Source: Candidatus Bathyarchaeota archaeon (GTDB taxonomy: Archaea > Thermoproteota > Bathyarchaeia > TCS64 > B23). Taken from it: DNA of 35,275 nucleotides. The stretch is taken from NCBI GenBank assembly GCA_937898665.1, contig CALEIY010000246.1, positions 1-35,275 of the forward strand, given 5' to 3'. Shown here one piece after another: positions 4,965 through 24,752 of the stretch. A model generated the notes under the pieces. It was not told the origin of the DNA. It did no database searches and saw nothing but the letters and a program-made list of their open reading frames with translations. The translations under genes were made by a program, and so were the position numbers. The stretch's first letter is position 1. Every line of letters begins with the position of its first letter.

Positions 4965-5843
4965 TCAACTCCCAAGCCTCGACAGGAGATGGTCAACCAG
5001 GGCCTCGGCGATGTCGACGTCCGTGACGCCTTGAAGACCCCTCCACCCAGGGGCGCTGTTCACCTCCGTGATGTAGTATTCGCCATCCTCTGAGGGGAGT
5101 ATGTCGACACCGGCGTATTCGAGGCCGATGACCCTCGCGGCTCTGATGCTCAGCTCCTCCAGCTCTGAGTCGAGGGTTAGAGGCTTAGCCCTCCCACCCC
5201 TCGATATGTTGGTTCTCCAATCGGCTCCTATGCGCATCATGGAGGCCACAACCCTGTCTCCGATGACGAAGGCCCTTATGTCCCTCTTCCTATGCGGTAT
5301 GTATTCCTGGAGGTAGTAGACGCCTCTGATTAGCTCTATGGCCCTGAAGACCCTATGAGCCAGGTCTGGGTCTGAAACCCGTATCATGCCGACGCCGAAG
5401 GAGCCGAAGAGGGGCTTGACGACCACGTCGCCTCCAAGCTCCTCAAAGGCCTCCATCGCCTCCCTATAGCTCTCCGTGACCACAGTCCTCGGCGTCTTTA
5501 TGCCGGCGTCCTCCAGCAGCGTAGAGGTATAATACTTGTCCACAGCCCTCTCGATGCTCTCAGCCGAATTCATAAGGTAGATGCCCAAGTCCTCAAGCCT
5601 ATGGAGGACGTCCATCCTGTAGAAGACCTGTTCAGGTGAGCCTCCTGGAACCCTGCGGACTATGATGGCGTCATAATCATCTATGGGGTATCCCCTAATC
5701 GAGACCCTAGGCCTCAGGCCGATGCGGGATAAAAATCGGGTTGGGGGGAGGTGGTAGGCCTCTACGTCTCTCCGCCTCAGGGCTTCGAGCAGCCTCTCCA
5801 CATGCCACTCATCAGGGCGTTGGGCTAATACCCCGATCTTCAT
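4965..5843 (-). CDS. mptN: RimK-type ATP-grasp ligase, probable tetrahydromethanopterin:alpha-L-glutamate ligase
   Basis: A 292-residue ATP-grasp enzyme. Landmarks are the VVVKPLFGSFGVGM nucleotide loop (about 141-154), YLQEYIPHRKRDIRAFV, and the metal-binding EVN followed by SAPGWRGLQ near the C-terminus, typical of the RimK/LysX/MptN/CofF group. MptN adds glutamate to tetrahydromethanopterin to make tetrahydrosarcinapterin; CofF adds alpha-glutamate to coenzyme F420. Its place as last gene of a formylmethanofuran/H4MPT operon, overlapping fwdC by 4 nt, favours MptN. The sequence alone cannot exclude CofF or lysine-biosynthesis LysX. Family is sure; substrate is inferred from context. Confidence 0.75.
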   Translation of the reverse strand: MKIGVLAQRPDEWHVERLLEALRRRDVEAYHLPPTRFLSRIGLRPRVSIRGYPIDDYDAIIVRRVPGGSPEQVFYRMDVLHRLEDLGIYLMNSAESIERAVDKYYTSTLLEDAGIKTPRTVVTESYREAMEAFEELGGDVVVKPLFGSFGVGMIRVSDPDLAHRVFRAIELIRGVYYLQEYIPHRKRDIRAFVIGDRVVASMMRIGADWRTNISRGGRAKPLTLDSELEELSIRAARVIGLEYAGVDILPSEDGEYYITEVNSAPGWRGLQGVTDVDIAEALVDHLLSRLGS

Positions 5844-6685
5844 CCCCGCTCAACTACGAGTATCTCCCCGTCTCCACCCACAGCCCTATCGCCCCTGTAT
5901 CGTCTGAAGGCTCTCCCTATATACTCCTCAGCCCGCTTTATGCCGAGTTTCTCGCTGAGGGTTTTGAGGTAGATGCGCATGAAGGTCGGCGTATAGGTTG
6001 TGTCGTAGACGAAGGTCGGCAGGAGCTCCTCCACCTCTCCGAGGCAGATGATCAGCGAGCCATTACCCTTCATCTGCGCCCCAAGGCGCTTAGCCGCTCT
6101 GCCGAGGATGAAGATGACACCCCCATTCATGTGGGCGCCGGTGAAGGGAGCCGCGTCGCCGCCTATGACGATGAGTCCCCGCCTCATTCCAGTTCCGGTT
6201 TCATAGCCCGCTGAACCCTCGACGAAGATGCAGCCACCCCTCATCCCCTCAGGGCTTCCCCTATATGCTGCGCCCAAAAGATCTCCGGCGTCTCCCCGAA
6301 TCCTTATGAGACCTCCAGCCATCTCAGCTCCAGCCCAATCCCCCACAGAGCCCTCAACGATGATCTCGCCTCCAGTCATCCTGGAGCCGAGGTGCATCCC
6401 AGCGTCTCCCTTGACGATGACCTTTCCCGCTGTCATCTCGGCTCCGATATACTTCACCCATGAGACATCCCCCTCAACGATGATGAGCTGCTCCTCGGGG
6501 TTAGGGGCGACTTCACCCTCAACCTCGAAGTATTCGCTTAGGGTCTCAACTCTATTCCCATGGTAGACCCTAAGCTCCTCAACCTCCCTCAGCGTCTTTC
6601 CGGCTACGACGTCGGGCGATATGACCTCAGCCTCTAGGGGTATGCTCAGCCCCGAGACCTTCGGCTTAAGCCTCAGCTCCATCAA
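5840..6685 (-). CDS. fwdC: Formylmethanofuran dehydrogenase subunit C
   Basis: 281 residues. The core (about 70-215) is a run of beta-helix repeats of the form GAxMxGGxIxVxGxxG, the hallmark of FwdC/FmdC and of the glutamate synthase C-terminal domain. FwdC is a structural scaffold holding FwdA and FwdB in the complex that reduces CO2 on methanofuran, or oxidises formylmethanofuran in reverse. It overlaps ftr upstream and mptN downstream by 4 nt each, indicating translational coupling. No catalytic residues are expected. Confidence 0.93.
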   Translation of the reverse strand: MMELRLKPKVSGLSIPLEAEVISPDVVAGKTLREVEELRVYHGNRVETLSEYFEVEGEVAPNPEEQLIIVEGDVSWVKYIGAEMTAGKVIVKGDAGMHLGSRMTGGEIIVEGSVGDWAGAEMAGGLIRIRGDAGDLLGAAYRGSPEGMRGGCIFVEGSAGYETGTGMRRGLIVIGGDAAPFTGAHMNGGVIFILGRAAKRLGAQMKGNGSLIICLGEVEELLPTFVYDTTYTPTFMRIYLKTLSEKLGIKRAEEYIGRAFRRYRGDRAVGGDGEILVVERG

Positions 6686-7617
6686 CTCGCTTCACCTCCG
6701 AGGCAGTCTCTCAGATATATCTGATACTTGCCGAGCTTTCCGCCGAAGTTGACGGCTGATATCCTCCTCACACCCTCAACCTCCACCGCTGCCCTTATGC
6801 CCTCAGCCATCGCCCTTCTAACAGAGGCCTCATCCAAGCCGTTTATGACAACCTCTATTATGGAGTTCACCCCCTCAGGCACCTGGGACTCTGGATACGT
6901 ATGCTTGATCGCTGGGCAGAAGGGCGTATTCGTTGAGGCCCTTAGGAAGGGGTATCTTGAACCCACTTTACTCCCACTTCGGCATAGGCCTCCTGGGAAC
7001 GGCGTTATGACTCCAGGCACCCTGTGTATAGCCTCGACGGCCCTCTCAGCCGCCTCCAGCGTTGAATCCTCGTCGACGCCCATGATGATGAAGTTTCCAC
7101 CCCCAACACCCTTCTTCGCCCCCAGCATCTCCTCTATTAGGAATTCACCCTCCATGACGGGTATACGCCAGAATCTTCGACGCCGTAGCCATCCGTCACC
7201 GAGCCTCATCTTCACCTGGTATCCATCGCCGAAGAATCTCAGTCTCTTACCTATGTCGAGCATCGCATCGGCCTCCTCCTCCGGTATGCCATTATAGACT
7301 GCCGTCGTGGGGCAGGTTAGGACGCACTGCCCTATACGCCTGACGAGCGGCTCTATCAACGTCTTCTTTGAGTGGGCGAAGACTATGACCGCCGTCCCAG
7401 GCCGGCCATCGGGGGTTTCATCCTCGCTGAGACGGCGCTCTATTCCCGCCTCGCAGTCGCACATTATGACGCTTGTGGCGAAGCCGGTCATCTCCATCGC
7501 AGCCGTGTCAGCCCATTTTTGGTTCTTGGCTGTGATGATGACTCTGCATCCCCACATCCTGAAGGCCTCTGCGAAGGTGTCCTCCACCTCTACGCCGTTA
7601 ACCCTCATCATCTCCAA
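6682..7617 (-). CDS. ftr: Formylmethanofuran:tetrahydromethanopterin formyltransferase
   Basis: 311 residues, slightly longer than the usual 297. It transfers the formyl group from formylmethanofuran to N5 of H4MPT, the second step of the C1 branch. Recognisable Ftr blocks include the N-terminal VEDTFAEAFRMWGCRVIITA, ATSVIMCDCEAGIE, FAHSKKTLIEPLVRRIGQCVLTCPTTAVYNG, GDGYQVKMRLG, PFPGGLCRSGSKVGSRYPFL and the STNTPFCPAI motif. The protein is soluble and cytoplasmic. The start overlaps the end of fwdA by 10 nt. Placement between fwdA and fwdC ties formyl transfer directly to the dehydrogenase operon. Confidence 0.96.
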   Translation of the reverse strand: MEMMRVNGVEVEDTFAEAFRMWGCRVIITAKNQKWADTAAMEMTGFATSVIMCDCEAGIERRLSEDETPDGRPGTAVIVFAHSKKTLIEPLVRRIGQCVLTCPTTAVYNGIPEEEADAMLDIGKRLRFFGDGYQVKMRLGDGWLRRRRFWRIPVMEGEFLIEEMLGAKKGVGGGNFIIMGVDEDSTLEAAERAVEAIHRVPGVITPFPGGLCRSGSKVGSRYPFLRASTNTPFCPAIKHTYPESQVPEGVNSIIEVVINGLDEASVRRAMAEGIRAAVEVEGVRRISAVNFGGKLGKYQIYLRDCLGGEAS

Positions 7618-9308
7618 CCCACCACCTTCACGGGCCTCTGAATTGGGAGATAGGCGTCCTCAACGGGGTAGTTGTCGAGGCTGATGGTGTAATAGTTCCT
7701 GAAGCCCTCCTCAAGGTCCTTCATCAGCTCACCCTCCAAATCCTCTGGAATCTCGACGTCAACCCAGTAGGTCTTACCAAGGGGTGTTGAGACCACCTCT
7801 CCGTCGACGACGATGATCTCGCCGCCCTTGATCGTATATTTGGCCCTTGAGAAGGCCTTCTCCACTTCCCTATACATGGAGGGCCTCCACTCTGTGGGGT
7901 CTATGTCGTAGATAGCGACATCGCCATCGGCCCCAGGCCCTAGATGACCCTTCTCCCTGAGGCCTAGAACCTTAGCAGGCGCAGCCCTTGTTGTGATGGC
8001 GATCTCGTAGAAGTCATACTCCCTGTATATGTCGGCCAGAGTCGTCTTCCTCATCGCGGCCTTATGTATCTCCAGCATCGTCTCCGTCCTCGCCTTACGG
8101 CTCATCAGCCATGCTATCACCTTCGGGTAGAAGGTGAAGGGGCCTCCGTTGGGGTGATCCGTCGTCATGTAGACCCTCCAGGGGTCGTAGATCAACAGGG
8201 CTAGCTCTAGGCCTATGGCCCACTGGATGGCGTTGACGGGATTCTTCTTCCTAAACGTATAGGGGACGACGCCTGCTCCGGCTTCCATCTCCACGTCGCT
8301 GTTTATCCACTTGTTCCCCGTTAGGTTGTAGAGTCTGAACTGCCAGGGGCCGTCTCCGGTCATGGTCGTCGTATCCGTGAAGATGACCTGACCTAGGTCG
8401 AGGGTTACATGCCTATGGGAGTTGACATATTTAGCGATCTCAGGCGCCCCTGATCGCAGTGTGGCCCAGCTGTCGCCGGCGAGGGCGTTGAACTGGCAGT
8501 GGACGATGTGGATGGTCGTCTCCCTCCCCTCTTTGGGCTTTATGTCCTCCACGGCCCTCATCGTCTCTATGGTGGTCTGATAGTTCCCTGGGACGCCGAG
8601 GTTGTTGCAGTGTAGATGTATCGTATGCGGCAGCCCCAGCTCCTCGTTGGCCCTGGCTAGGCTTGTGATGATCTGCCTCGGCGTGACATCAAAGCCCTCA
8701 ACCGTGTCATCTAATCCCTCAACGTTCTTACCCCACTTCCACGACTCGACGCCGCCTGGGTTTACGATCTTGATGGCGTATCCCCTCGTCGCCCTCATAA
8801 GCCATGCTATGAAGGCCTTCAACATCTCCAGGTCGCCCTCCCTCACATACTTGAGGACGAAGTAGTTGTTCCCGAAGAGCGGGTAGGCTGACTTGTCGAC
8901 GATGGGCGTGTCATTCAGCTCCTCGTGGACATGTCTAGCGCCCAGTGGAGGCATAGCCGGCTCCATGACGGTTGTGTAGCCCATCTGCGCGTAGCGGTAT
9001 CCGGCGATGTAGGTGGAGGGGCATGAATATCCGACGCCGGCCCTCGTCACCCTGGTTCTTGGAACTGGGTCTTTCCTGTGATCCTCTGGTCTGAGGAGTC
9101 TCCCGAGGTTTATCTTCGATCCAGCGATGTGGCTGTGGAGGTCTACGCCTCCAGGCATTACGACCATCCCAGAGGCGTCGATGACCTTGGCCTCATGCTC
9201 CGGGAGCTCCTCGACGATCTTGCCGTCCTTTATGTAGATGTCCATCCTCTCCCCGTTGACTCCATTTATCGGGTCGTAGACGTATCCACCCTTTATGATG
9301 AGGTTCAT
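7608..9308 (-). CDS. fwdA: Formylmethanofuran dehydrogenase subunit A
   Basis: 566 residues of the amidohydrolase superfamily, the expected FwdA length. FwdA condenses formate, delivered through a tunnel from FwdB, with methanofuran at a dinuclear zinc site. Visible ligand candidates are H58 and H60 in VDLHSH, K180 in YAIKIVNPGG (the lysine expected to be carboxylated), H231/H233 in HLHCNN, H267/H270 in HIVHCQ, and the Asp in MTTDHPNGG near residue 387. The start ATG overlaps the fwdB stop by 4 nt. All active-site elements look intact. Confidence 0.96.
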   Translation of the reverse strand: MNLIIKGGYVYDPINGVNGERMDIYIKDGKIVEELPEHEAKVIDASGMVVMPGGVDLHSHIAGSKINLGRLLRPEDHRKDPVPRTRVTRAGVGYSCPSTYIAGYRYAQMGYTTVMEPAMPPLGARHVHEELNDTPIVDKSAYPLFGNNYFVLKYVREGDLEMLKAFIAWLMRATRGYAIKIVNPGGVESWKWGKNVEGLDDTVEGFDVTPRQIITSLARANEELGLPHTIHLHCNNLGVPGNYQTTIETMRAVEDIKPKEGRETTIHIVHCQFNALAGDSWATLRSGAPEIAKYVNSHRHVTLDLGQVIFTDTTTMTGDGPWQFRLYNLTGNKWINSDVEMEAGAGVVPYTFRKKNPVNAIQWAIGLELALLIYDPWRVYMTTDHPNGGPFTFYPKVIAWLMSRKARTETMLEIHKAAMRKTTLADIYREYDFYEIAITTRAAPAKVLGLREKGHLGPGADGDVAIYDIDPTEWRPSMYREVEKAFSRAKYTIKGGEIIVVDGEVVSTPLGKTYWVDVEIPEDLEGELMKDLEEGFRNYYTISLDNYPVEDAYLPIQRPVKVVGWR

Positions 9309-10585
9309 CCCATCACCTCCTCTATGATGAGGCTTAGAATCTCCGCGTCGGGGAGGACTCCCTCCGGCGGCTCCATAAGCTTCTTCAGCCTTATCGGTAT
9401 TCCATCCATCCTGTAGGCTGTCCCCTCAGCCTCTATGCCCGCAGCGGCCGTTGGGATGACGACTCTGCCGATCATGGAGGTCATACTCCTCTTCGGGTCG
9501 AGAACGATGGTGGGAATCTCAGCCAGCCGCCTCGCAGCCTTATAGGGGAGATGCGCAACGGGGTCTGAGGCGATGATCAACGCCGCATCCGCCTCGCCCC
9601 TGGAGAGGAGGTCTACGGCTGTATATTCACCTGGATTGTATCTCGGGTAGCCCCTGCTGAAGTCCACCGCATAGGGGTAGCCGGTCTGCCAGGTCGTCAC
9701 CGTGTTAGCCCCAGCGACGTTGTAATGCCCCCTCATGGGTATGAGGACGAACTTCGTATGATGGTTCAAGTCTGCGACGAGGCCTATGGCGGCCTCTATG
9801 TTCATATGTCGCCCCTCGCTCTGCGTCAAGCCTAGGCCGAAGAAGATGGCTCCGAATCGACTCTTCTTCATCCTCTCAGCCAGCTCCAATATGACATCCC
9901 TCGGAACACCTGAAACCTCGTCGACGTCGAGGCCGTAGCCCCTGACGACAGCCCTCAGAGCTGAGAGGAGTTCATAGTCGCCCCCTGGCTTTACCTTAAC
10001 GAAGAGATCTGCCACTCGCTTCATCCTCGTCTCCCTAACGTCGACGGCCACCACATACCGATCTTTCCTGCCTCCAGAGGTGTATAGGCCTCTCGCCATC
10101 GCTGAGTATCGGGTTAGATGCCTTAAATGGGCCTCAAGGGGGTTGCATCCCCAGTAGATGATGAGGTCAGCCCTATTCCTCACGGTTCCAAGGGTGCACT
10201 TCGATTCGCCGAGGGTTTGGAGCGCAAGTATCGTCGGCCCATGGCAGACGGAGGCCGTGTTGTCGATGACTCCTCCTATGAGTTCTGCGAGTTCTATCGC
10301 CTTGGCTATGGCTCCGCACTCCGTGGAGCTGAGGCCGTAGATTAGGGGCCTCCTCGCAGATTTGAGTATCTCAGCCGCCTCTTTCACAGCCTCCTCAAGG
10401 GTGGCGGACTCTCCATCGATGAGGGGCTTCTCAACCCTATTCTCATGGTGGTGTAGAAACTTCGATGTGGAGATGGCGCATCCATTCCGCACCTTAACGA
10501 TCCGGTTATCCTCAACGGTGACCTCCAGGTCGTCGCAGAGGCATCCGCAGAAGGGGCAGACCACACTCCTATATACAGGCATCAC
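9305..10585 (-). CDS. fwdB: Formylmethanofuran dehydrogenase subunit B (W/Mo-pterin catalytic subunit)
   Basis: 426 residues. The N-terminal cysteines C10, C13, C17 and C36 suit one [4Fe-4S] cluster. The bis-pterin metal ligand is probably C114 in ASVCHGPT, cysteine rather than selenocysteine. Later landmarks include YWGCNPLEAH, GLGLTQSEGRHMN and MRGHYNVAGANTV. FwdB reduces CO2 to formate, or the reverse, with low-potential electrons. The start is 3 nt after the fwdD stop. The cofactor needs tungsten or molybdenum, linking this operon to the transporter at 21.8-24.7 kb. Genes for the ferredoxin-like subunits FwdE, F and G are not in this window. Confidence 0.96.
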   Translation of the reverse strand: MMPVYRSVVCPFCGCLCDDLEVTVEDNRIVKVRNGCAISTSKFLHHHENRVEKPLIDGESATLEEAVKEAAEILKSARRPLIYGLSSTECGAIAKAIELAELIGGVIDNTASVCHGPTILALQTLGESKCTLGTVRNRADLIIYWGCNPLEAHLRHLTRYSAMARGLYTSGGRKDRYVVAVDVRETRMKRVADLFVKVKPGGDYELLSALRAVVRGYGLDVDEVSGVPRDVILELAERMKKSRFGAIFFGLGLTQSEGRHMNIEAAIGLVADLNHHTKFVLIPMRGHYNVAGANTVTTWQTGYPYAVDFSRGYPRYNPGEYTAVDLLSRGEADAALIIASDPVAHLPYKAARRLAEIPTIVLDPKRSMTSMIGRVVIPTAAAGIEAEGTAYRMDGIPIRLKKLMEPPEGVLPDAEILSLIIEEVMG

Positions 10586-10588
10586 GAA

Positions 10589-10972
10589 TCACCCCTTCAA
10601 CTCCCTTAGGAGCTCCTCCAGGGTTGGAGGCTCCCCCTCAGCCTTGCGGATCTTCGCCTCTACGCCCTTCACCGATGGTATGCCCGTCCCATGGGTCTCG
10701 GGGTCGAAGAGTCTATTCGCCCAGGGGCCTAGGGGTATGAAGGCCATGCCGGCCTCGATGTCCTCTGAGAGCTTACACCAGACCCTCGTTGAGCCATGGA
10801 GCGTTGAGACCTCGACGGCTTCTCCCTCTCCGACGCCGATCCTCTCGGCGTCGCCAGGATTTAGGAGGATGTAGTTGACGCTCCTCTGATAGCGTTCCGA
10901 TAGCTTTCCGATCTCCTTTCCAACACCCTGCTCGGCCGTCCTCCCCGTTATGAGGGTTACCGTTATCTCCAC
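10589..10972 (-). CDS. fwdD: Formylmethanofuran dehydrogenase subunit D
   Basis: 127 residues when started at the GTG at 10972. This is the molybdopterin-dinucleotide-binding barrel domain that completes the FwdB active site. Landmarks are VTLITGRTAEQG, LNPGDAERIGVGEGE, FIPLGPWANRL and HGTGIPSVKG. A longer frame to 11065 exists, but its extra 31 residues are basic and unlike FwdD. That stretch also contains the TATA-like GGCTTAAGTC (11007-11016) and, just before the GTG, a GAGAGGAT Shine-Dalgarno-like run. It is the first gene of the fwdD-B-A-ftr-C-mptN operon. Confidence 0.9.
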   Translation of the reverse strand: MEITVTLITGRTAEQGVGKEIGKLSERYQRSVNYILLNPGDAERIGVGEGEAVEVSTLHGSTRVWCKLSEDIEAGMAFIPLGPWANRLFDPETHGTGIPSVKGVEAKIRKAEGEPPTLEELLRELKG

Positions 10973-11006
10973 GGCCGATCCTCTCCTACTTAGACCTTTA
11001 GATGTC

Positions 11007-11016
11007 GACTTAAGCC
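11007..11016 (-). promoter_or_regulatory. Putative promoter of the fwd operon
   Basis: The minus strand reads GGCTTAAGTC about 40 nt before the fwdD GTG start. A transcript starting about 26 nt downstream would carry a leader of about 12 nt that includes the GAGAGGAT ribosome-binding-like stretch. Confidence 0.45.
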
Positions 11017-11077
11017 TTGTGAGACATAACCGGATAACTCTTATGGGCTTTAGGCCTAACTCCATCGGTGGTGTCTA

Positions 11078-12121
11078 TTGCTCCTAAACCTATGGGATCT
11101 CCCAAGGCTTAGGGATGTTCGCCGCAGGAAGATCTCAAGCCACGACCCAACGGGTGGAAATAGGGATTATGTCACGGTTCCAAGGGGTGAAACCCACACC
11201 CTGGCAGAGATAGAGGGAGCCGGATGCATCAGGCATATCTGGGTGACCATACGCTGCGAAGATCGGTGGCATCCTAGGAAGATCGTTCTGAGGATGTATT
11301 GGGATGGTGAGAGGGAGCCGAGCGTTGAGGCCCCCATAGGCGACTTCTTCGGCTTGGGGCATGGCATCTACAGGAACTTCGTCTCTCTGCCGCTGCAGAT
11401 GGCCCCTGAGGATGGGAGGGGCCTAAACTCCTGGTGGCCTATGCCCTTCAGCGACGGAGCCAGAATCGAAGTTGAAAATGAATGCGACACCGAGATCAGC
11501 CATCTCTACTACCACATCGACTATGAGGAGTATGAGGAGCTCGACGAAGATCTCGGGAGATTCCACGCAGCCTGGAGGAGGGAGAACCCCACCGACGGCC
11601 TTGACTACTCCCAGCCCATAGACTTCAGGAGGATTTGGAGGGAGGAGAAGAACATCGATGGAAGCGGAAACTATCTTATCCTCGAAGCCGAGGGCAGAGG
11701 CCACTATGTTGGATGCCACGTCGACATCCACAACCTACGGGTGACGGATGAGTTTAACTGGTATGGGGAGGGGGATGAGATGATCTTCATCGACGGAGAA
11801 CGGCTGCCGAGCATAGTTGGAACCGGAACCGAGGATTATTACTGCATGGCCTGGTGCCCAACGCAGGAGTTCTGCACCCCCTTCTATGGGCTGCCCCTCC
11901 CAGGAGGCCCAAATTGGAGTGGGAAGATCAGCTGGTATAGGTATCACATCCTCGACCCAATATACTTCCAGAAGTCCATACGGGTGACGTTGGAGCATGG
12001 CCATGCGAACTGGAGGAGCGATGACATAAGCAGCACAGCCTACTGGTATCAGGCTGAACCCCACAAGAGGCTCTGGCCCCTCCTCCCCGTCGAGGAACGA
12101 CTGCCGAGGGAGGAGCCATGA
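11078..12121 (+). CDS. GH172 (DUF2961) family furanosidase
   Basis: 347 residues, full length for DUF2961/GH172. No signal peptide is seen, so it is probably cytoplasmic. GH172 includes alpha-D-fructofuranosidase/difructose-anhydride enzymes and exo-D-arabinofuranosidases. Family motifs are WYGEGDEMIFIDGE, GTGTEDYY and the late YRYHILDPIYF...DDISSTAYWYQ. E231 and E252 are 21 residues apart, the same spacing I recall for the two catalytic glutamates of the Bifidobacterium enzyme (E270/E291). The TTG start follows GGTGGTG by 4 nt. It is the first gene of a three-gene operon; its stop overlaps the isomerase ATG by 4 nt. Confidence 0.85.
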   Translation: MLLNLWDLPRLRDVRRRKISSHDPTGGNRDYVTVPRGETHTLAEIEGAGCIRHIWVTIRCEDRWHPRKIVLRMYWDGEREPSVEAPIGDFFGLGHGIYRNFVSLPLQMAPEDGRGLNSWWPMPFSDGARIEVENECDTEISHLYYHIDYEEYEELDEDLGRFHAAWRRENPTDGLDYSQPIDFRRIWREEKNIDGSGNYLILEAEGRGHYVGCHVDIHNLRVTDEFNWYGEGDEMIFIDGERLPSIVGTGTEDYYCMAWCPTQEFCTPFYGLPLPGGPNWSGKISWYRYHILDPIYFQKSIRVTLEHGHANWRSDDISSTAYWYQAEPHKRLWPLLPVEERLPREEP

Positions 12122-13662
12122 GGGTAGGAGTCTTCTCACCCAACGATCCCAGGCCCTGGGTGAGGGCTGAGAACATAGACCACATGATCCACCGTGAAAA
12201 ACTCCTCGTAGAGGCGCTGGAGAAAAACGGCGTAGAGGTCATCAGGGGCGGTGAGGGGCTGCCGAAGATGGATCAGATCGCCTGGAACACGGAGCTGGTT
12301 AGGAGGCATATTAGACGCATCGCAGCTGAGAGACCCATAGCCCTCATCATAAACCAAGGCTCCTGGACCTTCCCCTACGACACCGTCGACGCCGTCGAAT
12401 TCTATGAGGCTGAGACAGGCGACATAGCCAGGGTCATCATCTTCAGCCATAAGGATCCGAGGGTTCCAGGCCTCGTCGCTGGGATGGCTGCCGGAGGAGC
12501 CCTCAACCGCATAGGGATTCCCTACTACCACGTCTACGGAGACATCGAGTCCGATCCACGGGTGATAGAGGAGTTGATGGCGGTTCTTCGCTTCTATGAG
12601 CGCAGAGCAGAGGCTGAGGGGGATGTGAAGAGGGCCATAAAGGCGTTGAGGGGGCGGAAGTATCTCGCCCTCGGAGGCATGAGCCTCCGAATGCCTACAA
12701 CGACGGCCGATGTGGATCAGTGGATGAAGCTCTTCGGCGTCACCTATGAAGCCCTCGACCAGTCGGAGCTGCTGGTAAGAGCCTGGAGAATGGTGGAGTG
12801 GGAGGGCAAACCAGGGGAGAGCCGTTACCGCATTCTCGACCCAAGGTTGGAGAGGGCTGCCGAGTATATCCAGAGACATGGGCGCATCGATTACAGCAGG
12901 GAGAAGTTGAGGAGCTTTGAGAAGCTCCTATACCAGCTCAGCCTCTACTACGCAGCCCTCGACCTCGTTGAGGAGTATGATGTAGACTTCCTCGGCGTCA
13001 AATGTCAGGATGAGCTGAGCGCCAGGGAGTGCACCGCCTGTCTTCTGTCGGCCTACCTAAACAACGATGTGGGGCCGGATGGCGAGCCTAAGCGGATCGT
13101 GCCGACGGCCTGTGAGAACGATATGGACTCTGCGCTCACCCAGCTCATCCTCCACCTATTGACCGGCAAGCCCGCGGGCTTCGGGGACTTCAGGGATGTG
13201 GAGGAGGGCATCCTTACCATCATGAACTGTGGACAGCATCCACCCTACTTCTTCGGAGGCCCAGAGATGGACTCCAAGGCCAAGCTCGATTTGGCTGAGT
13301 ATATGGGGCAGGAGGTCTTCTACGCCGCCGGAGGCAGCTCGGTGAGGGGGCGGACACCAGGCGGATATTTGATGACCATCGCCCGCTTAGCGAGGGAGAA
13401 TCTGCGTTATCGACTGGTGGCAGCCGTCATCGAGACCGTCGATGTCGACCCCTCAGAGCATGAGCGCTACAACCCCTCCTGGCCAATCATCAAGGGCCGG
13501 ATACCGATGCCAGATGAGGAGCTCATAGAGGTCTGGCCCTGCAATCACCTCGCCTTCACCTATGGGGATCTCACGCCGCATCTCGCCGAGCTGGCTCAAA
13601 GGCTGGATATAGGATTCATCGTCTACGACGCCGATGGTAGACGATATACGAAGCCGACGTAG
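12118..13662 (+). CDS. L-fucose/D-arabinose-isomerase-fold sugar isomerase
   Basis: 514 residues of the fucose/arabinose isomerase superfamily, which interconverts aldoses and ketoses at a Mn2+ site. E333 (CENDMD) and D357 (FGDFRD) are 24 residues apart, the same spacing as the E337/D361 metal ligands I recall for E. coli FucI. H477 in CNHLAF is the probable third ligand. NCGQHPP (near 370-376) and the C-terminal TYGDLTPHLAELA region are also family-like. FucI-type enzymes often accept both L-fucose and D-arabinose. It is coupled to the upstream GH172 gene by ATGA overlap and abuts the downstream kinase. The exact sugar is inference. Confidence 0.8.
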   Translation: MRVGVFSPNDPRPWVRAENIDHMIHREKLLVEALEKNGVEVIRGGEGLPKMDQIAWNTELVRRHIRRIAAERPIALIINQGSWTFPYDTVDAVEFYEAETGDIARVIIFSHKDPRVPGLVAGMAAGGALNRIGIPYYHVYGDIESDPRVIEELMAVLRFYERRAEAEGDVKRAIKALRGRKYLALGGMSLRMPTTTADVDQWMKLFGVTYEALDQSELLVRAWRMVEWEGKPGESRYRILDPRLERAAEYIQRHGRIDYSREKLRSFEKLLYQLSLYYAALDLVEEYDVDFLGVKCQDELSARECTACLLSAYLNNDVGPDGEPKRIVPTACENDMDSALTQLILHLLTGKPAGFGDFRDVEEGILTIMNCGQHPPYFFGGPEMDSKAKLDLAEYMGQEVFYAAGGSSVRGRTPGGYLMTIARLARENLRYRLVAAVIETVDVDPSEHERYNPSWPIIKGRIPMPDEELIEVWPCNHLAFTYGDLTPHLAELAQRLDIGFIVYDADGRRYTKPT

Positions 13663-15198
13663 GTGGAGGATATGGCGCTGCTCCTGGGAACAGATATAGG
13701 AACCCTTGGAACGAAGTCTGTTCTCGTCGACGATGAGGGGCGTATCCTCGCCACGGCATTCGAGGAGTATGGGGTTCTCACCCCAAGGCAGGGATGGGCC
13801 GAGCAGTGGCCTGATGTCTGGGTTAAAGCTGCCTTCACCACCATGAGGCGATGTATAGAATCCGCGGAGGCCAACCCAAGGGATGTGGAGGGCGTCTGCA
13901 TAAGCAGCCTCTACGGCGGAAGCGGAATCCCCTGTGATGAGGAGATGAGGCCTCTAAGGCCCTGCATCATCTGGGCTGACCGCAGAGCCGTGGAGGAGTG
14001 TCGATGGGTGGAGGAAAACGTCGGCCTGGATGTCATCTATGAGAGGACGGGGAATGTCATCGACCCCTACTATGGGTATACGAAGATGCTGTGGATAAAG
14101 CGTCATGAACCCGACATCTGGAGTCGGATTCATAGGTTGATGACCCCAAACGGCTACTGCATCTACAGGATGACGGGTGTTGAGAGCATAGACCTATCCA
14201 GCGCGGGAAACTATGGAGGCATCTTCGACATCCATCATCGAAACTGGTCTGAGGAACTCATGGAGCTCCTCGGCATACCAAGAGGCTTCTTCCCCGAGAA
14301 GCTCTATGAGTCGGATGAGGTAGTCGGCGAGGTCACCTCTGAGACCTCTAGGATGACGGGTTTGAAGCCTGGAACCCCCGTCTGCGCCGGAGGCATCGAC
14401 GCCCCGATGAGCGCCCTCGCCGTGGGAGCCTTGGAGGATGGGGATGTGGCTGTTATGCTGGGAACCTCCATGTGTAATGGCTTCATAAGCCACAGCCTCC
14501 GGCTTTCACCGAGATTGGTGAACTTCCCCTACGTCGTTAATGGGCGGAGATGGCTCTACTCCTTCACGGGTGTCACAACGGCCGGCTACTGTGTAAGGTG
14601 GTTTAGGGATAACCTGGGTAGACTTGAAGCCCTCCTAGCCCCCGAGATCGGTATGGATGCCTACGCCCTCCTAGATAGGGAGGCTGAGACGGTTCCCCCA
14701 GGCTCTGAGGGGCTGATATTCCTGCCACATATGATGGTGGGAGAGCGGGCGCCTTATTGGGATGAGCATCTCAGGGGAGGCCTGCTAGGATTGACGATCT
14801 ATCATGGGAGACGTCACATCTTTAGGGCCTTCCTTGAGGGGGTTGCCTATGCGGCTCGATACTGCCTGGAAGCCGCTGAGGAGGCTGGTCACCCGCTTAG
14901 AAGGCTGATGCTCGTGGATGGGGGTGCCAAGTCGAGGCTTTGGAGGCAGATAATGGCGGATGTAATCGGCGTTGAGATGCTCTACATACCTAAGGCCGTC
15001 GGGGCGCCTCTTGGAGACGCCCTGCTTGCGGGGGTGGCCGTGGGGGTGGTTGGAGGCTATGAAGCTATCTCGGGATGGCTTGGGGAGCTGATGGAGGTGA
15101 AGCCAGATGAGGGGGTTAAGCCCCTCTACGATAGGTATTACCGCATCTATAAGCGCCTGCTAGAGGCGTGTGGAGACGTCTTTATGGAGCTTGGATGA
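13663..15198 (+). CDS. FGGY-family carbohydrate kinase (ketose kinase)
   Basis: 511 residues, typical FGGY length. The N-terminal phosphate loop GTDIGTLGTKS, GWAEQWPDVW, IIWADRR, the GGIDAPMSALAVGA ATP-site region, MLGTSM, YSFTGVTTAGYC, FLPHMMVGERAPYWD and LVDGGAKSRLWRQIMADV all match xylulo-, ribulo- and fuculokinases. It would phosphorylate the ketose made by the adjacent isomerase: D-ribulose if the substrate is D-arabinose, L-fuculose if it is L-fucose. GTG at 13663 directly follows the isomerase stop; an ATG at 13672 is the alternative start. It converges with the MFS gene, leaving only 4 nt between stops. Confidence 0.88.
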   Translation: MEDMALLLGTDIGTLGTKSVLVDDEGRILATAFEEYGVLTPRQGWAEQWPDVWVKAAFTTMRRCIESAEANPRDVEGVCISSLYGGSGIPCDEEMRPLRPCIIWADRRAVEECRWVEENVGLDVIYERTGNVIDPYYGYTKMLWIKRHEPDIWSRIHRLMTPNGYCIYRMTGVESIDLSSAGNYGGIFDIHHRNWSEELMELLGIPRGFFPEKLYESDEVVGEVTSETSRMTGLKPGTPVCAGGIDAPMSALAVGALEDGDVAVMLGTSMCNGFISHSLRLSPRLVNFPYVVNGRRWLYSFTGVTTAGYCVRWFRDNLGRLEALLAPEIGMDAYALLDREAETVPPGSEGLIFLPHMMVGERAPYWDEHLRGGLLGLTIYHGRRHIFRAFLEGVAYAARYCLEAAEEAGHPLRRLMLVDGGAKSRLWRQIMADVIGVEMLYIPKAVGAPLGDALLAGVAVGVVGGYEAISGWLGELMEVKPDEGVKPLYDRYYRIYKRLLEACGDVFMELG

Positions 15199-15202
15199 AG
15201 GC

Positions 15203-16501
15203 CTAATCTCCTCTCTCCTCTACGAAGATTATGAAGAGGGCGGTTGTGAGGAAGCCGAGTATACCCGCAGTCCAGAAGGGGACTATATATCCGGATAGGG
15301 TGTATCCGAGAATCATTATCTTCTTCACGGCATAGATCTTGGTGAGGTATCCCCCAACTATGGAGCCGATGAAGGTTCCAGCGTTGAGGAAGAGCTGCTG
15401 CAGGCCGAAGACGCTTCCCCTCGTCCCCTCCATCGCTAGATCGGCCTGTAAAGCCCTCATAGCCGGCATGGAGAGGCCGAAGACTAGGCTGATGAGTGAT
15501 CCGACGATGAGGAGTATTAGATAACTCCTTATGAGGGGGATTATGAAGAAGGCGGTTCTCCCTATCAGGTAGCCGAATACGACGAAGGGCTTCCTCCTCC
15601 TAAACCTGTCGCTCAGATATCCCGCTAGGAGCGTCGTCGGGAGTGAGAGGAGGGCAAATATCGAGAAGAATATGCCGATATAAACCGGATCCTTCACTAT
15701 CCTCTCTATTATGTATACGATCATCACCGTCTGGATGATCCCCATCGCGAAGCCGTTTATGGCTCCGTTGATATACATAACTCTCAGGCTTCTCGCGGCT
15801 CTCCTCGGGGTTTCCCTCAGCCTCCTCACCACCTCGCCGAATCTCTCCACGCGACCCCCACCTACAGATGGGAGGGAGAGCAGCGTTAAGAGGGAGGAGA
15901 GGGAGAGGAGTGCCAGGAGGACTATTGGGGTTTTAAGGGCGAAGATGAGGTTTCCGTCCCCCTCCATCGAGACGTAGAGCTTATAGACGGCGACTCCGAG
16001 GCTCGGCCCGAAGATCTGAGCTATCATCATCGAGGAGGCATAGATGGAGATCGCCTTCCCCCTAGACCATCGAGGAGATACATCGGCGAGGAGCGCCTCA
16101 GCCACGGGCCAGACCATCCCAGAGGCGACTCCCTGCAACGCCCTGAAGACTATGAAGAGGAGGAGGCTGTTTGAGAGTATGAATCCGAGGGCTGAGGCGG
16201 TGTATAGCGCCATACCTAGGAGGATGGTTCTCTTCTTCCCAATCACATCGCTTACAAATCCTATAGCCCCAGCCGTCGGCGCCCTGGTGATCATGAAGGC
16301 AGCGGTTAGGAAGCCGAGTTCGACGGCGCCTTCATGCGCCCTAATCATGCCGACGGAGAGCTCCGGCAGCTCTTTTAGAACACCCTTTATCGCGAGTATC
16401 AGATAGGGGAAGAGGGGAGAGAGCGCCGAGAAGCCTATATTGATGACGAAGGAGGCTGCAACTACGATTATGAGGGTTCTACGAAAAATCTCCTCTCGCA
16501 T
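15203..16501 (-). CDS. Major facilitator superfamily transporter
   Basis: 432 residues with about 12 hydrophobic segments and charged loops typical of MFS. SDVIGKKRTILLG after the second or third helix matches the conserved loop 2-3 motif, and SDRFRRRKPFVVFG repeats it in the second half. The substrate cannot be read from sequence. The gene is convergent to the sugar operon, so a sugar or sugar-product exporter is possible but unproven. It starts with ATG. TATTTAAA (16524-16531) is centred 27 nt upstream, so the transcript is probably leaderless and independent of mch. Confidence 0.85.
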   Translation of the reverse strand: MREEIFRRTLIIVVAASFVINIGFSALSPLFPYLILAIKGVLKELPELSVGMIRAHEGAVELGFLTAAFMITRAPTAGAIGFVSDVIGKKRTILLGMALYTASALGFILSNSLLLFIVFRALQGVASGMVWPVAEALLADVSPRWSRGKAISIYASSMMIAQIFGPSLGVAVYKLYVSMEGDGNLIFALKTPIVLLALLSLSSLLTLLSLPSVGGGRVERFGEVVRRLRETPRRAARSLRVMYINGAINGFAMGIIQTVMIVYIIERIVKDPVYIGIFFSIFALLSLPTTLLAGYLSDRFRRRKPFVVFGYLIGRTAFFIIPLIRSYLILLIVGSLISLVFGLSMPAMRALQADLAMEGTRGSVFGLQQLFLNAGTFIGSIVGGYLTKIYAVKKIMILGYTLSGYIVPFWTAGILGFLTTALFIIFVEERGD

Positions 16502-16546: not shown

Positions 16547-17497
16547 TCAGGTGGCTATAGACCTCTTAATGATCTCGGGGTTAACCTCCCCCGCGATGTA
16601 GGTGGCTCCGGTTCTTAGACTTGTTAAACCGACGACGGCTGGGGCGAAGAGCGCTGGATCTATCTGGGTGAAGTCGAAGTTCACGGCCTTATATATCTCG
16701 TAGGAGGGCTTCCCATACTCCTTCGAAGTCGAGGAGGGAGCCTTCTCAGCCAGCTCCTTTAAGATCTCCTCTTCCTCGTCGACGATGAAGTGGGTGACGC
16801 CGCCGTAGGTGAGGGCATCCTCAGCCCTGCCCATCGCCTTCCCCCAGTCGCCGTGAACAGGCATTATGGGGGCATAGCCGACGCCATACTCCACCTTCTT
16901 TAAGTCTAGGCCTAGGACGTCGAGTCTGAAGAGTCCCGTCTCGACGACTCGACCGGATATCTGAACCATCCCCGCTATGGAGGTGGTTGAGGTCAAGAGT
17001 AGATAGAGGTCCCTCGGGTCTACACCGCATTTCTCAGCGATGAATCGGGCGGCCTCATCCGTCGGCCTCCTATCCGTCTCCAATAGCAGCACCGCCACAT
17101 CGGCCTCGTCTTTATACTCAATCTTCTGATAGACCTTCTTAGGCTTCAGGGCTAAGGCTCTCCCAGGGCCTGAAGCATCAGCCGTATAGTCTCCAGCCTT
17201 AATCCTCCAGCCGGCCAGCTGGGCTCCGAAGAGGGCGATGGCTGGGTGATCCGTTGAGACGACCACCGTCGGCAGCTTCAGTCCCCCATAATCCGCGTAG
17301 CTCAGGTGAGCCTCTCCGGCTCCCCCCATAGCGATCCTGGTGACCATCAATCCCGCTGCGTATCCCCCAGGGGCTTCTAGGCCTGTGTCGATGACTGTTG
17401 AGCCGCAGGGCAGCTTTGAGACCTCTATGCGGTATAGCTCCGGCTCCGAGAGTAGTTCTTCCACCAGCTTATAGGCCAGCCGATTTATGCTCAGCAT
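16547..17497 (-). CDS. mch: Methenyltetrahydromethanopterin cyclohydrolase
   Basis: 316 residues, normal length for Mch. It converts N5-formyl-H4MPT to N5,N10-methenyl-H4MPT, the step after Ftr. Family blocks include SINRLAYKLVEELL, CGSTVIDTGLEAPGGYAAGLM, VSTDHPAIALFGAQLAGW, the ASGPGRAL loop, LLLTSTTSIAGMVQISGRVVETG and YGVGYAPIMPVHGDW. It is soluble. A very good Shine-Dalgarno AGGAGGTG (minus strand, 17504-17511) lies 6 nt before the ATG, unlike the leaderless genes around it. It sits 6 kb from the fwd/ftr operon, separated by the sugar cluster. Confidence 0.97.
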   Translation of the reverse strand: MLSINRLAYKLVEELLSEPELYRIEVSKLPCGSTVIDTGLEAPGGYAAGLMVTRIAMGGAGEAHLSYADYGGLKLPTVVVSTDHPAIALFGAQLAGWRIKAGDYTADASGPGRALALKPKKVYQKIEYKDEADVAVLLLETDRRPTDEAARFIAEKCGVDPRDLYLLLTSTTSIAGMVQISGRVVETGLFRLDVLGLDLKKVEYGVGYAPIMPVHGDWGKAMGRAEDALTYGGVTHFIVDEEEEILKELAEKAPSSTSKEYGKPSYEIYKAVNFDFTQIDPALFAPAVVGLTSLRTGATYIAGEVNPEIIKRSIAT

Positions 17498-21796: not shown

Positions 21797-22867
21797 TTAG
21801 GTGGAGGGTAGAACCTTCACAGCCGTCGCCTTAAAACCTGCGTAGAGCATCTCCCCTGGCTTAGGGTTCAGCTCCTCGTAGGATCCTCTCGTTATCAACA
21901 CCCTCAGGCTTACCCCTCCCCTCGTGAGCTCCACTTCTATGAGGGGGCCGAGCTCCTCGACTCCTGCGACGCGGCAGTGCAACTGATTCCTCATGCTGCT
22001 CCTCAATGGGGCGCGTGATAGTACGATGTCCTCACGGCCGAGGAGGAGGATCACCCTCCTCCCCGTGGGGAGGGGCTTCGGGTGGGCAGCCTTCAGCTCC
22101 ACCCCCTCGACGTCTATGAGTTGAACCCCTCCCTCACACCTCTTCACGATGCCCTCTAAGATGTTTGGTCTTCCACTAAGCCAGGCCACCTCCATCGATT
22201 TTGGATCTCTGAAGACCTCCATCGGCCTCCCAACCTGTATGATCTCGCCGCCGTACATCACCGCCATCCGCTTTCCAAGCTCGGCGGCCTCAACCGGGTC
22301 GTGGGTCACATGGATGGCCGTGAAGCCCAGCTCGCGGTGGAGCCTCTTAATCAGCTCTTTGGCCGACTCCCTCGAGGCCTCATCGAGGCTGCTGAGGGGC
22401 TCATCGAGGAGGAGGGCTTGGGGCTTTATGATGAGGGCTCTCGCCAGGGCGACCCGCTGCCTCTCCCCTCCGCTGAGGGTCTCCGGCATTCTTTTGAGAA
22501 GCCCCTCGATGCCGATGTATTCGGCGACCTTTAAGACCCTTCTACGAAGCTCGGACTCCCGAGTTCCCCTTATCCTTAGGCCGTAGGCGATGTTCTCGTA
22601 GACGGTCATGTGGGGCCAGAGGGCGATGCTCTGGGGGACATAGGCTAAGCCCCTTTTCTCAGGGGGGAGATCGGTGATGTCTCTACCATCGATGTAGATG
22701 CTCCCAGCCTCGGGTCTCCTGAACCCTACGAGGGTTTCGAGGAAGATTGTTTTACCCGCCCCGCTTGGCCCCATGAGGGTGAGATACTCGCCTCTCTCCA
22801 CGTCGAGCTCCTCAACCCGCAGCTTGAAGTCTCCAGCCATCACCCGTAGCCCCTCAACCCTTATCAT
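21797..22867 (-). CDS. wtpC: Tungstate/molybdate ABC transporter ATP-binding protein
   Basis: 356 residues from the ATG at 22867, where it overlaps the permease stop by 4 nt. A longer frame to 23086 only runs antisense-like through wtpB. Walker A GPSGAGKT (33-40), Q-loop YVPQS, signature LSGGERQRVALARAL, Walker B ALLLDEP and the switch histidine THD are all intact. The C-terminal 120 residues contain a TOBE/MOP-type domain (SSMRNQLHCRVAGVEELG), which in this family binds oxyanion and gates transport. It is the last gene of wtpA-B-C. WtpC versus ModC naming rests on the archaeal context. Confidence 0.9.
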   Translation of the reverse strand: MIRVEGLRVMAGDFKLRVEELDVERGEYLTLMGPSGAGKTIFLETLVGFRRPEAGSIYIDGRDITDLPPEKRGLAYVPQSIALWPHMTVYENIAYGLRIRGTRESELRRRVLKVAEYIGIEGLLKRMPETLSGGERQRVALARALIIKPQALLLDEPLSSLDEASRESAKELIKRLHRELGFTAIHVTHDPVEAAELGKRMAVMYGGEIIQVGRPMEVFRDPKSMEVAWLSGRPNILEGIVKRCEGGVQLIDVEGVELKAAHPKPLPTGRRVILLLGREDIVLSRAPLRSSMRNQLHCRVAGVEELGPLIEVELTRGGVSLRVLITRGSYEELNPKPGEMLYAGFKATAVKVLPST

Positions 22868-23658
22868 CGCCTTTCCTCCATCGCCCTCAATCCTGTGAGG
22901 ATTATCAAGCTGGCTATGAGCAGTAGAACCGATAGCCCTGCGGCGGCCTTCAATCCCCTTGTTAGGAACCATTCGTAGACGAGGACTCCTGCGACGGTTG
23001 GGTGGTAGGCCACCACCATTATGGCTCCAACCTCGCTCACCGCCCTGGCGAGGCTCATCAGCCACCCCGTGAGGATGCTCCTCCACGCCAACGGCAGTGA
23101 GATGGTTAGGAAGACCCTCTGGGCTGAGGCCCCTAGGCTCCTCGCCACCTTCTCAAGCTCCAGGTCAATGGAGTCGAATCCCCTCTTGGCGAAGTTCACG
23201 GCGAAGGGTGAGGAGACGAAGACCATGGCGAGAACCACTCCGTAGAAGCTATCCTCAACTCTCAGGCCGATGGAGGAGAGCAGTTGGCCGAGGGGCGCCC
23301 TGCTGTTGAAGGCGAGGAGAACGGCTATGCCCGCAACGGTGTGGGGGAGGATTAAGGGGAGGTCGAGGAGGCCTTGGATGAGGCTTTTACCCCTGAAATC
23401 GCCCCGGCTCAACATGTAGGCGAGGGGGACGCCGAAGAGTGTTGAGAACGACGCTGAGACGGCTCCAGCTCCCAGCGACAAGGCTACAGCCGATAGGGCT
23501 TTGGGGTTCATAGCCGTATCTGGGATCCATCCACCCCCTATGGAGATGAGGGAGAGCAGGGGGATCACGAGGACTGCTATGAGGATGCTCGCCAGCCCTG
23601 ATAGGTAGAGGAGAAACCACTTGGCACCGGCCAGGGGGGAGCCAGGCTCAACGGACAT
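22864..23658 (-). CDS. wtpB: Tungstate/molybdate ABC transporter permease
   Basis: 264 residues from the ATG at 23658, which shares one base with the wtpA stop (TGATG). A longer frame to 23691 would overlap wtpA by 34 nt. It has about six transmembrane helices and the ABC-permease EAA-like loop EKVARSLGASAQRVFLTISLPLAWRSI, where WtpC docks. LPHTVAGIAVLLAF and ARAVSEVGAIMVVAYHP match ModB/WtpB proteins. Its position between wtpA and wtpC supports high-affinity tungstate or molybdate uptake. Confidence 0.9.
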   Translation of the reverse strand: MSVEPGSPLAGAKWFLLYLSGLASILIAVLVIPLLSLISIGGGWIPDTAMNPKALSAVALSLGAGAVSASFSTLFGVPLAYMLSRGDFRGKSLIQGLLDLPLILPHTVAGIAVLLAFNSRAPLGQLLSSIGLRVEDSFYGVVLAMVFVSSPFAVNFAKRGFDSIDLELEKVARSLGASAQRVFLTISLPLAWRSILTGWLMSLARAVSEVGAIMVVAYHPTVAGVLVYEWFLTRGLKAAAGLSVLLLIASLIILTGLRAMEERR

Positions 23659-24680
23659 CAATCTCCCTCCTCTAGGAGCTCCGTAAGCCATTTTGGTGCT
23701 TCGCCGATGATTTCAGGCCTTATAGGTCTGAAGCCACTCTCCTCCAGGATCCCCCTCCCCTCATCGCTCAGAAGAAGCCTGATGAATCTCTTGGCTGTAT
23801 TCTCATGCTGGGCATCCAGCGGAACCGTCAACCCATAGACGATGGGTGAAGCCTTCAGAGTCTTCGCCCCCCCTCCCGTCGCCATCAACTTCAACGAGAC
23901 CTTGGCATACCAATCCTCTAACTCCGGATCGACGAGATTCAATTCATCCGGCAGCTCCACGTAGGAGAGACCCCTTGAGACTGCGACGTTCCTATACTCG
24001 AAGGCATAGTCCAGCATGCCAGCCTCGACGAGGGCGATGAGGTCGACGGATTTGCTCCTTACAAACACCCTAACCGAGTCGGGCTTAAGCCCCGTACAGT
24101 CGAGGTAGACTCCACTCTCATTCATCATGTAGGTGATACCGGCATGTTCCCTCAACATCCTCAGAGGTCTATCGTCATCGTAGTATAGTGAGGCCAAAGC
24201 CAACACCATCACGGCTCTGTAGCCGCAGGGGTCCTTATTTGGGTCTGAGAAGCCCACCCTCACATCGTCTCGTAGGAGTATCTCAAGCCAGTTCTCCTCG
24301 TTTATCTCCCCCGCGTATCGACTCTTCGATGAGTGGGCGATGACCATCTCATTTGATGCGTACTTCAGACACCATTCGGCGTGCTCTCCGAACATGAGGG
24401 CGGGTATCAACCTATAGTCGGCGCTTATGACGAGGTCGCATTTCTTCCCCATGTCTACCACCTTCCTTATGGCGTCGATGCTTCCACTCGGCTCGTTCAG
24501 CACCCTAATACCCTCGCGCCTCAGGATGGAGGCATAGCCTTCGACGACGTCGGTCATGCTCCCCGCATGGTATATGACGAGCTCCCCTGAGGGCCTCTCC
24601 ACCATATACCAGCCTATGATTCCCAGGGAGAATATGAGGATGGTGATGGTGGCTATTAGGCCTCTGCGCACATCGTTCAC
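23658..24680 (-). CDS. wtpA: Tungstate/molybdate-binding protein
   Basis: 340 residues from the GTG at 24680. A single hydrophobic N-terminal segment anchors it outside the membrane. The mature part starts with LVIYHAGSMTDVVEGY, then IRVLNEPSGSIDAIRKVVDMGKKCDLVISADYRLIP, SDPNKDPCGYRAVM and LPDELNLVDPELEDWY, all WtpA-like oxyanion-site blocks. I reject the longer frame to 24725: its first 15 codons would span the TATA box (24703-24710) and operator. The GTG lies 26-27 nt after the TATA centre, so the mRNA is probably leaderless. It diverges from the ModE-like regulator. Confidence 0.9.
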   Translation of the reverse strand: MNDVRRGLIATITILIFSLGIIGWYMVERPSGELVIYHAGSMTDVVEGYASILRREGIRVLNEPSGSIDAIRKVVDMGKKCDLVISADYRLIPALMFGEHAEWCLKYASNEMVIAHSSKSRYAGEINEENWLEILLRDDVRVGFSDPNKDPCGYRAVMVLALASLYYDDDRPLRMLREHAGITYMMNESGVYLDCTGLKPDSVRVFVRSKSVDLIALVEAGMLDYAFEYRNVAVSRGLSYVELPDELNLVDPELEDWYAKVSLKLMATGGGAKTLKASPIVYGLTVPLDAQHENTAKRFIRLLLSDEGRGILEESGFRPIRPEIIGEAPKWLTELLEEGD

Positions 24681-24702
24681 CGTTATTCGATAACCGATAA
24701 CG
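24681..24702. promoter_or_regulatory. ModE-like operator of the tungstate transporter
   Basis: Inverted repeat CGTTAT-N10-ATAACG, with an inner GTTAT-TCG-ATAAC repeat nested in its left part. ModE boxes in bacteria have CGTTATAT-type half-sites, from memory. It fills exactly the space between the wtpA TATA box (24703-24710) and the wtpA GTG (24680). A bound repressor would therefore block initiation directly. The neighbouring divergent gene encodes a ModE-type DNA-binding protein. Confidence 0.7.
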
Positions 24703-24730
24703 AATTTAAGACCTATGATCAGCATAAAAA
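24703..24730. promoter_or_regulatory. Divergent TATA boxes of wtpA and the ModE-like regulator
   Basis: CTTAAATT on the minus strand (24703-24710) is 26-27 nt before the wtpA GTG. CATAAAAA on the plus strand (24723-24730) is 26-27 nt before the regulator ATG at 24753. Both spacings predict leaderless mRNAs. Confidence 0.65.
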
Positions 24731-24752
24731 CCCTAAGGCCAACTATCCATCG

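Follow-up and report, generated by a model that had tools for sequence, protein, structure and literature searches.

A GH172–isomerase–kinase gene unit in Bathyarchaeia as a candidate route for D-arabinofuranoside salvage

Which sugar is handled by a glycosidase, a sugar isomerase and a sugar kinase that are encoded side by side in an archaeon? We asked this of a 35,275-nucleotide stretch of Candidatus Bathyarchaeota archaeon DNA (assembly GCA_937898665.1, contig CALEIY010000246.1, forward strand; hereafter, the window), whose host belongs to Bathyarchaeia. On its plus strand, three linked open reading frames with intact catalytic residues encode a glycoside hydrolase of family 172 (GH172, DUF2961), a FucI-fold isomerase and an FGGY carbohydrate kinase. 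Gene order, conservation, folds and catalytic residues of this unit are established. The answer that we favour, and consider probable although well short of certain, is a cytosolic salvage pathway leading from small alpha-D-arabinofuranosides to D-arabinose, D-ribulose and finally D-ribulose 5-phosphate.

All three reading frames were found where the original prediction had placed them, each with Pfam domains above the curated cut-offs. The GH172 gene (11078..12121, 347 amino acids) begins with a TTG codon, a few bases 5' of which lies a Shine-Dalgarno-like GGTGGTG, and its end is joined by an ATGA overlap to the start of the isomerase gene (12118..13662, 514 amino acids). The isomerase stop codon (13660-13662) directly adjoins a GTG at 13663 in the frame of the kinase gene (13663..15198, 511 amino acids from this GTG). 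However, the kinase more probably starts at the ATG at 13672, which follows GGTGGAGG; this gives 508 amino acids, and the junction may therefore be a 9-base gap. The tight coupling noted for these genes is confirmed, with this reservation about the second junction.

The unit is widely conserved. Among 32 genomes of the host's order, 13 carry the isomerase, with the GH172 gene immediately upstream in 11 of the 12 testable genomes (the exception being G005; the contig of G017 was unsuited) and the kinase gene immediately downstream in 8 of 11 (G001 and G022 stand outside this count). The kinase gene is more distant in G018 and G031 and was not found in G013. The G013 GH172 gene (L015:10516-11109) is partly N-masked. 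The closest named records for the isomerase are metagenome-assembled genomes of Candidatus Bathyarchaeota, at 97% identity, and the kinase is 61-97% identical in 8 relatives. Because the same gene order recurs in several genera at 61-97% protein identity, the arrangement is far beyond chance, and this linkage supports the salvage reading.

In the proposed pathway, the GH172 enzyme would hydrolyse terminal alpha-D-arabinofuranose (D-Araf) off a small imported or internal glycoside by a retaining mechanism, with E252 as nucleophile and E231 as acid/base. The isomerase, of the Mn type, would then convert D-arabinose to D-ribulose, and the kinase would phosphorylate D-ribulose at O5, yielding D-ribulose 5-phosphate for central metabolism. 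We infer the substrates of all three enzymes, their expression as a single transcription unit and where the glycoside comes from. Further support comes from a gene at another place in the genome that resembles hexulose-phosphate synthase; it scores below its curated cut-off, and its product could use the ribulose 5-phosphate.

The first enzyme matches PF11175 with 302 bits against a cut-off of 27, covering positions 2-235 of the 235-position profile, and no signal peptide is apparent in its sequence. Its active-site residues include E231, E252, D253, W228, W259 and C260; the first five of these and Y144, which comprise the Glu pair, the Asp after it and the Trp/Tyr residues of the -1 subsite, are in register with E270, E291, D292, W267, W298 and Y187 of alphaFFase1. 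Both catalytic glutamates were thus intact, as predicted. The nearest solved structures are BACUNI_00161 (4kq7), DgGH172c (8ah3), alphaFFase1 (7v1v) and ExoMA1 (8ic8). Those characterised among them are two alpha-D-arabinofuranosidases, DgGH172c and ExoMA1, and one alpha-D-fructofuranosidase, alphaFFase1, which also cleaves p-nitrophenyl-alpha-D-Araf (PMC10115798, PMC8605356, PMC10509167). DgGH172c and BACUNI_00161, the best-scoring of these relatives, share 40-45% identity with the window enzyme over aligned positions and have the same Trp-Cys-Pro stretch in the sugar pocket; BACUNI_00161 differs in its Sec signal (PMC8812541). The difructose dianhydride I synthase/hydrolase alphaFFase1 is likewise cytosolic and shares the fold, the Glu pair and the Ca-site residues (N28, D30).

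In this family, the choice between D-Araf and D-fructofuranose has been assigned to the residue that follows the conserved Trp. At this position alphaFFase1 has Gly299, ExoMA1 has Asn253 and BACUNI_00161 has Cys304, which clashes; according to the solved structures, a bulky residue here blocks fructofuranose (PMC10509167, PMC8605356). In the window enzyme this residue is Cys260, which is invariant within its clade and is also Cys in DgGH172c. A GH172 protein of Rhizobium phaseoli with Gly at this position, whose gene lies two genes away from one for GH32, groups with alphaFFase1, and this sequence comparison serves as an independent check of the pocket-residue rule. In two trees the window clade stands apart from alphaFFase1. 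Neither the small residue nor the clade membership of that fructofuranosidase type was found here, and the outcome that would have refuted the original prediction, grouping with fructofuranosidases only, did not occur. Cys260 and the position outside the alphaFFase1 clade support salvage, and from pocket residue and relatives we predict an exo-alpha-D-arabinofuranosidase. Rhizobium and Sinorhizobium megaplasmids encode a GH172 that is ~50% identical, with the same Trp-Cys-Pro-Thr, in operons with LacI and sugar ATP-binding cassette (ABC) transporter genes (L121:4700-10182, L122:4695-11275). A second GH172 clade, with the active-site stretch LEGDEM, EDYFQGGW, adjoins a PfkB sugar kinase related to 2-keto-3-deoxygluconate kinases (L067:1321-3501, L068:3840-6052, L076:1148-3357).

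The second enzyme scores above the Pfam cut-offs for Fucose_iso_C (44.6 bits, cut-off 29.3) and Fucose_iso_N1 (37.9 bits, cut-off 28). The three predicted metal ligands, E333, D357 and H477, are aligned with those of 1fui, and the equivalents of FucI W88, W499 and N527 are kept as W83, W455 and N476; for FucI R16 and Y437 the alignment is ambiguous (numbering varies between FucI enzymes, as in W496/499 and N524/527). In an AlphaFold2 model built from 22 sequences (mean predicted local distance difference test score 92), the top Foldseek match was 3a9r, the D-arabinose isomerase of Bacillus pallidus (E 4e-25), followed by other FucI enzymes and then by L-arabinose isomerases, with template modelling scores of ~0.56 that indicate only moderate whole-chain likeness. 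This closeness to a D-arabinose isomerase and the kept metal triad support the salvage reading, as does the ability of FucI enzymes to interconvert D-arabinose and D-ribulose (PMC6894278). Compared with FucI (3a9r, 1fui, 6k1f), the enzyme shares the fold but is ~75 residues shorter and 18-20% identical in structural alignment, and in a tree it belongs to a fully supported clade on a long stem. Since the triad and the three further residues are kept while Gln300 of FucI is replaced by Lys295 and the curated FucI models exclude it, we regard this protein as a predicted FucI-fold aldose isomerase of a distant subfamily rather than an established FucI.

The third enzyme is a complete FGGY kinase, as predicted (FGGY_N 197.6 bits, FGGY_C 113 bits), with D246 as the likely catalytic Asp, and we take it to be a predicted pentulose 5-kinase. 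Its GGIDA stretch is a weak hint in this direction, resembling the IDAHAG of pentulose kinases. Stronger, in our analysis, is the gene association of isomerase orthologues. In UBP4 bacterium UBA6127 the isomerase gene (L041, 65% identical) is directly preceded by a kinase gene that passes TIGR01315, the pentulose kinase model, with 619.5 bits against a cut-off of 408.7; this model includes characterised D-ribulokinases. In a WOR-3 bacterium (L042, 59% identical) an AraB-like kinase gene lies ~3 kb off. Both associations support the salvage reading.

Several observations weigh against it. The deep order of the GH172 clades is poorly resolved, so that trees alone leave specificity unsettled, and the nearest GH172 enzymes of UBP4 and of ex4484_205, a further genome with this isomerase, have Gly at the key pocket position. 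Lys295, in place of the substrate-recognition residue Gln300 of FucI, is invariant across the wider alignment, and the isomerase falls far below the FucI equivalog models TIGR01089 (29.4 versus 850 bits) and NF008220 (34.6 versus 775 bits). The kinase, too, is below every curated specificity model, including XylB (TIGR01312, 324.9 versus 380.25 bits) and TIGR01315 (108.8 versus 408.7 bits). FucI enzymes act also on D-altrose, L-fucose and L-galactose (PMC6894278). It is conceivable that the same chemistry serves another sugar, either a D-arabino furanose such as D-altrofuranose or 6-deoxy-D-altrofuranose or a sugar of the L-fucose type, with the kinase acting on the matching 2-ketose; Lys295 hints at an altered sugar pocket, and the kinase matches no described specificity model. 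We consider this unlikely, as the orthologous isomerases are paired with a pentulose kinase in UBP4 and an AraB-like kinase in WOR-3, the characterised GH172 substrates are D-Araf or D-fructofuranose, the kinase scores far lower with FucK-like and RhaB-like models, and the unit is without an aldolase.

A more remote alternative is that the kinase is XylB-like and takes D-xylulose, which the isomerase would make from another aldopentose, with GH172 supplying the pentose or being merely co-regulated. Among NCBIfam models the kinase indeed matches XylB best, and E. coli XylB is among its nearest solved structures. However, the score lies under the cut-off, and the QMHG and GGGDN stretches of XylB are replaced by SLYGG and GGIDA, which are largely invariant in the clade. 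D-xylulose, moreover, lacks the D-erythro configuration at C3-C4 preferred by FucI, and on balance we hold this route to be improbable.

The genomes of the order supply the remaining points against salvage. Four of them (G020, G026, G029 and G030) contain a GH172 of this clade and the kinase but lack this isomerase; there, the isomerase step may be filled in another way, or a different pathway may operate. In G009 the kinase gene is retained at its usual place and the isomerase only as a broken remnant; near L032 9585-9812 (G009:C45:98584-98811) this remnant contains stop codons, and no GH172 gene stands beside the kinase gene. The four genomes would fit a fructan or difructose route in which GH172 is an alpha-D-fructofuranosidase, as is the family member alphaFFase1, the kinase takes the freed ketose directly and the isomerase is dispensable. 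Against this, Cys260 should clash with fructofuranose, no GH32 gene was seen beside the GH172 gene, completeness is only 70-76% in two of the four genomes (G020 and G026), and the other two, G029 and G030, have a different FucI-fold gene whose type is associated with a rhamnulokinase-like kinase. We judge such a route highly improbable. Finally, no GH183 endo-D-arabinanase was found in any of the 32 genomes, in a search in which the control genomes gave no signal either.

Candidates for the missing isomerase and for a different role of GH172 were considered and rejected. A 386-amino-acid reading frame between the GH172 and kinase genes of G026 (L061:6974-8134) belongs to no Pfam family and is treated as spurious, the opposite strand showing, by eye, an apparent aminotransferase-like frame. 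FucI-like genes of ~545 amino acids, carried mostly by genus g6 (L093-L097), could conceivably be promiscuous substitutes; because of their pyruvate kinase, rhamnulokinase-like kinase and YfcE phosphodiesterase neighbours, a 6-deoxyhexose route is more likely. In L094 the pyruvate kinase gene precedes the FucI-like gene and the other two follow it, and L093 and L095-L097 match in gene size and order. D-Araf biosynthesis as in mycobacteria, considered from UbiA and PAP2 genes near GH172 (L060, L061), was not borne out by the family scores.

Outside the order, the isomerase occurs at 59-65% identity in ex4484_205, whose record is labelled Bathyarchaeota, the phylum of the window, and in the UBP4 and WOR-3 bacteria. 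Because two bacterial lineages thus share it, the sequences suggest that it has moved between domains. The ex4484_205 and UBP4 genomes also hold GH172 genes, away from the isomerase gene. Queries with the isomerase against plasmids gave no match, and the listed neighbours of haloarchaeal plasmid GH172 genes included no such isomerase or FGGY kinase.

Do comparable systems exist? A D-arabinan locus with GH172, isomerase and kinase genes has been published for Microbacterium arabinogalactanolyticum (PMC10509167), and GH172 with a predicted fucose isomerase for PUL42 of Dysgonomonas gadei (PMC10115798). In both, as in our unit, a GH172 exo-alpha-D-arabinofuranosidase accompanies a sugar isomerase, and in Microbacterium the GH172 enzyme is cytosolic, a kinase is present and the proposed end product is D-ribulose 5-phosphate. 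This pairing in bacterial D-arabinan loci supports the salvage reading, and the linkage of GH172 to isomerase and kinase is found in our unit as well. However, the bacterial loci also encode GH183 endo-D-arabinanases and GH116 and, in Microbacterium, an ABC transporter, whereas the archaeal unit holds three cytosolic steps only, with a divergent isomerase (isomerases and kinases were compared by description). The D-arabinan part of the original prediction is thus unsupported: no GH183 enzyme was found in the 32 genomes, in the search that was likewise silent on the control genomes, the GH172 has no apparent signal peptide, and the unit contains no oligosaccharide ABC transporter. The steps from D-arabinofuranoside to ribulose 5-phosphate, partly supported, are its best-supported part.

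In E. coli B, FucI and DarK lead from D-arabinose through D-ribulose to D-ribulose 5-phosphate, as cited in PMC12307932 and PMC6336799. The isomerase-plus-kinase logic is that of our unit; the route as cited there involves a canonical FucI and no glycosidase, and our kinase, by comparison, fails TIGR01315. The archaeal D-arabinose catabolism of Sulfolobus solfataricus is oxidative, with a dehydrogenase and dehydratases leading to 2-oxoglutarate (PMC6336799), and uses neither isomerase nor kinase. According to a survey of DUF2961 (PMC8812541), Bathyarchaeota are among the holders of this family, which in bacteria co-occurs with FGGY kinases. In the open literature searched, which covers few subscription journals, we found no paper joining Bathyarchaeota with GH172. 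The composition of the operon therefore appears undescribed in archaea, as first stated, but the same combination has been published in bacteria: the chemistry has bacterial precedent, and what is new is its setting in archaea, together with the divergent subfamily of the isomerase.

Upstream of the unit lies the divergent fwdD, whose longest reading frame begins at 11065 and whose likelier start is the GTG at 10972 (VEITVTLITGR); this would leave ~105 bases free for control elements, a probable intergenic candidate control region (10973..11077). Downstream, a convergent gene on the minus strand (15203..16501; PF07690, 158 bits) encodes a major facilitator superfamily transporter that is a possible importer; it adjoins the kinase gene only within the host's own genus. 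On either side the operon is bordered by tetrahydromethanopterin one-carbon genes (mptN-like, fwdC, ftr, fwdA, fwdB, fwdD, mch; 4965-11065 and 16547-17497), a frame that is also seen in two other genomes (L061, L099). In two genera (window; L061, L099) the operon or its remains have the formylmethanofuran dehydrogenase cluster on one side and mch on the other. Proteins of 750-830 amino acids, possibly surface proteins, are encoded beside or near the kinase gene at L014:4375-6666, L059:1105-3354, L060:907-3405, L099:4334-6730 and L104:478-2745; those scanned, the first four, have a DUF11/TRAP-beta-like domain near the C-terminus. Farther off in the window (21797-27700) are wtpC and wtpA, for a tungstate ABC transporter, and genes for a ModE-domain/molybdopterin-biosynthesis-like protein and an aldehyde ferredoxin oxidoreductase-like protein.

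With this in mind, one may tentatively speculate further, with the odds against it, that GH172, a kinase of new FGGY specificity and an unrecognised FucI-fold isomerase subfamily, which Bathyarchaeia share with two bacterial lineages, make up the first archaeal phosphorylative D-arabinose pathway. It would salvage a non-mycobacterial D-Araf glycoconjugate and so imply that anoxic sediments, or the archaea themselves, contain a D-Araf glycan as yet unknown. If the salvage reading is true, Bathyarchaeia, hard-to-culture archaea that abound in anoxic sediments, would use a sugar so far associated mainly with the cell walls of actinobacteria, and archaea would have an isomerase-kinase route for D-arabinose alongside the known oxidative one. 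The same reading would offer a testable substrate for a divergent subfamily of aldose isomerases and connect two bacterial relatives, so far uncharacterised, with pentulose metabolism.
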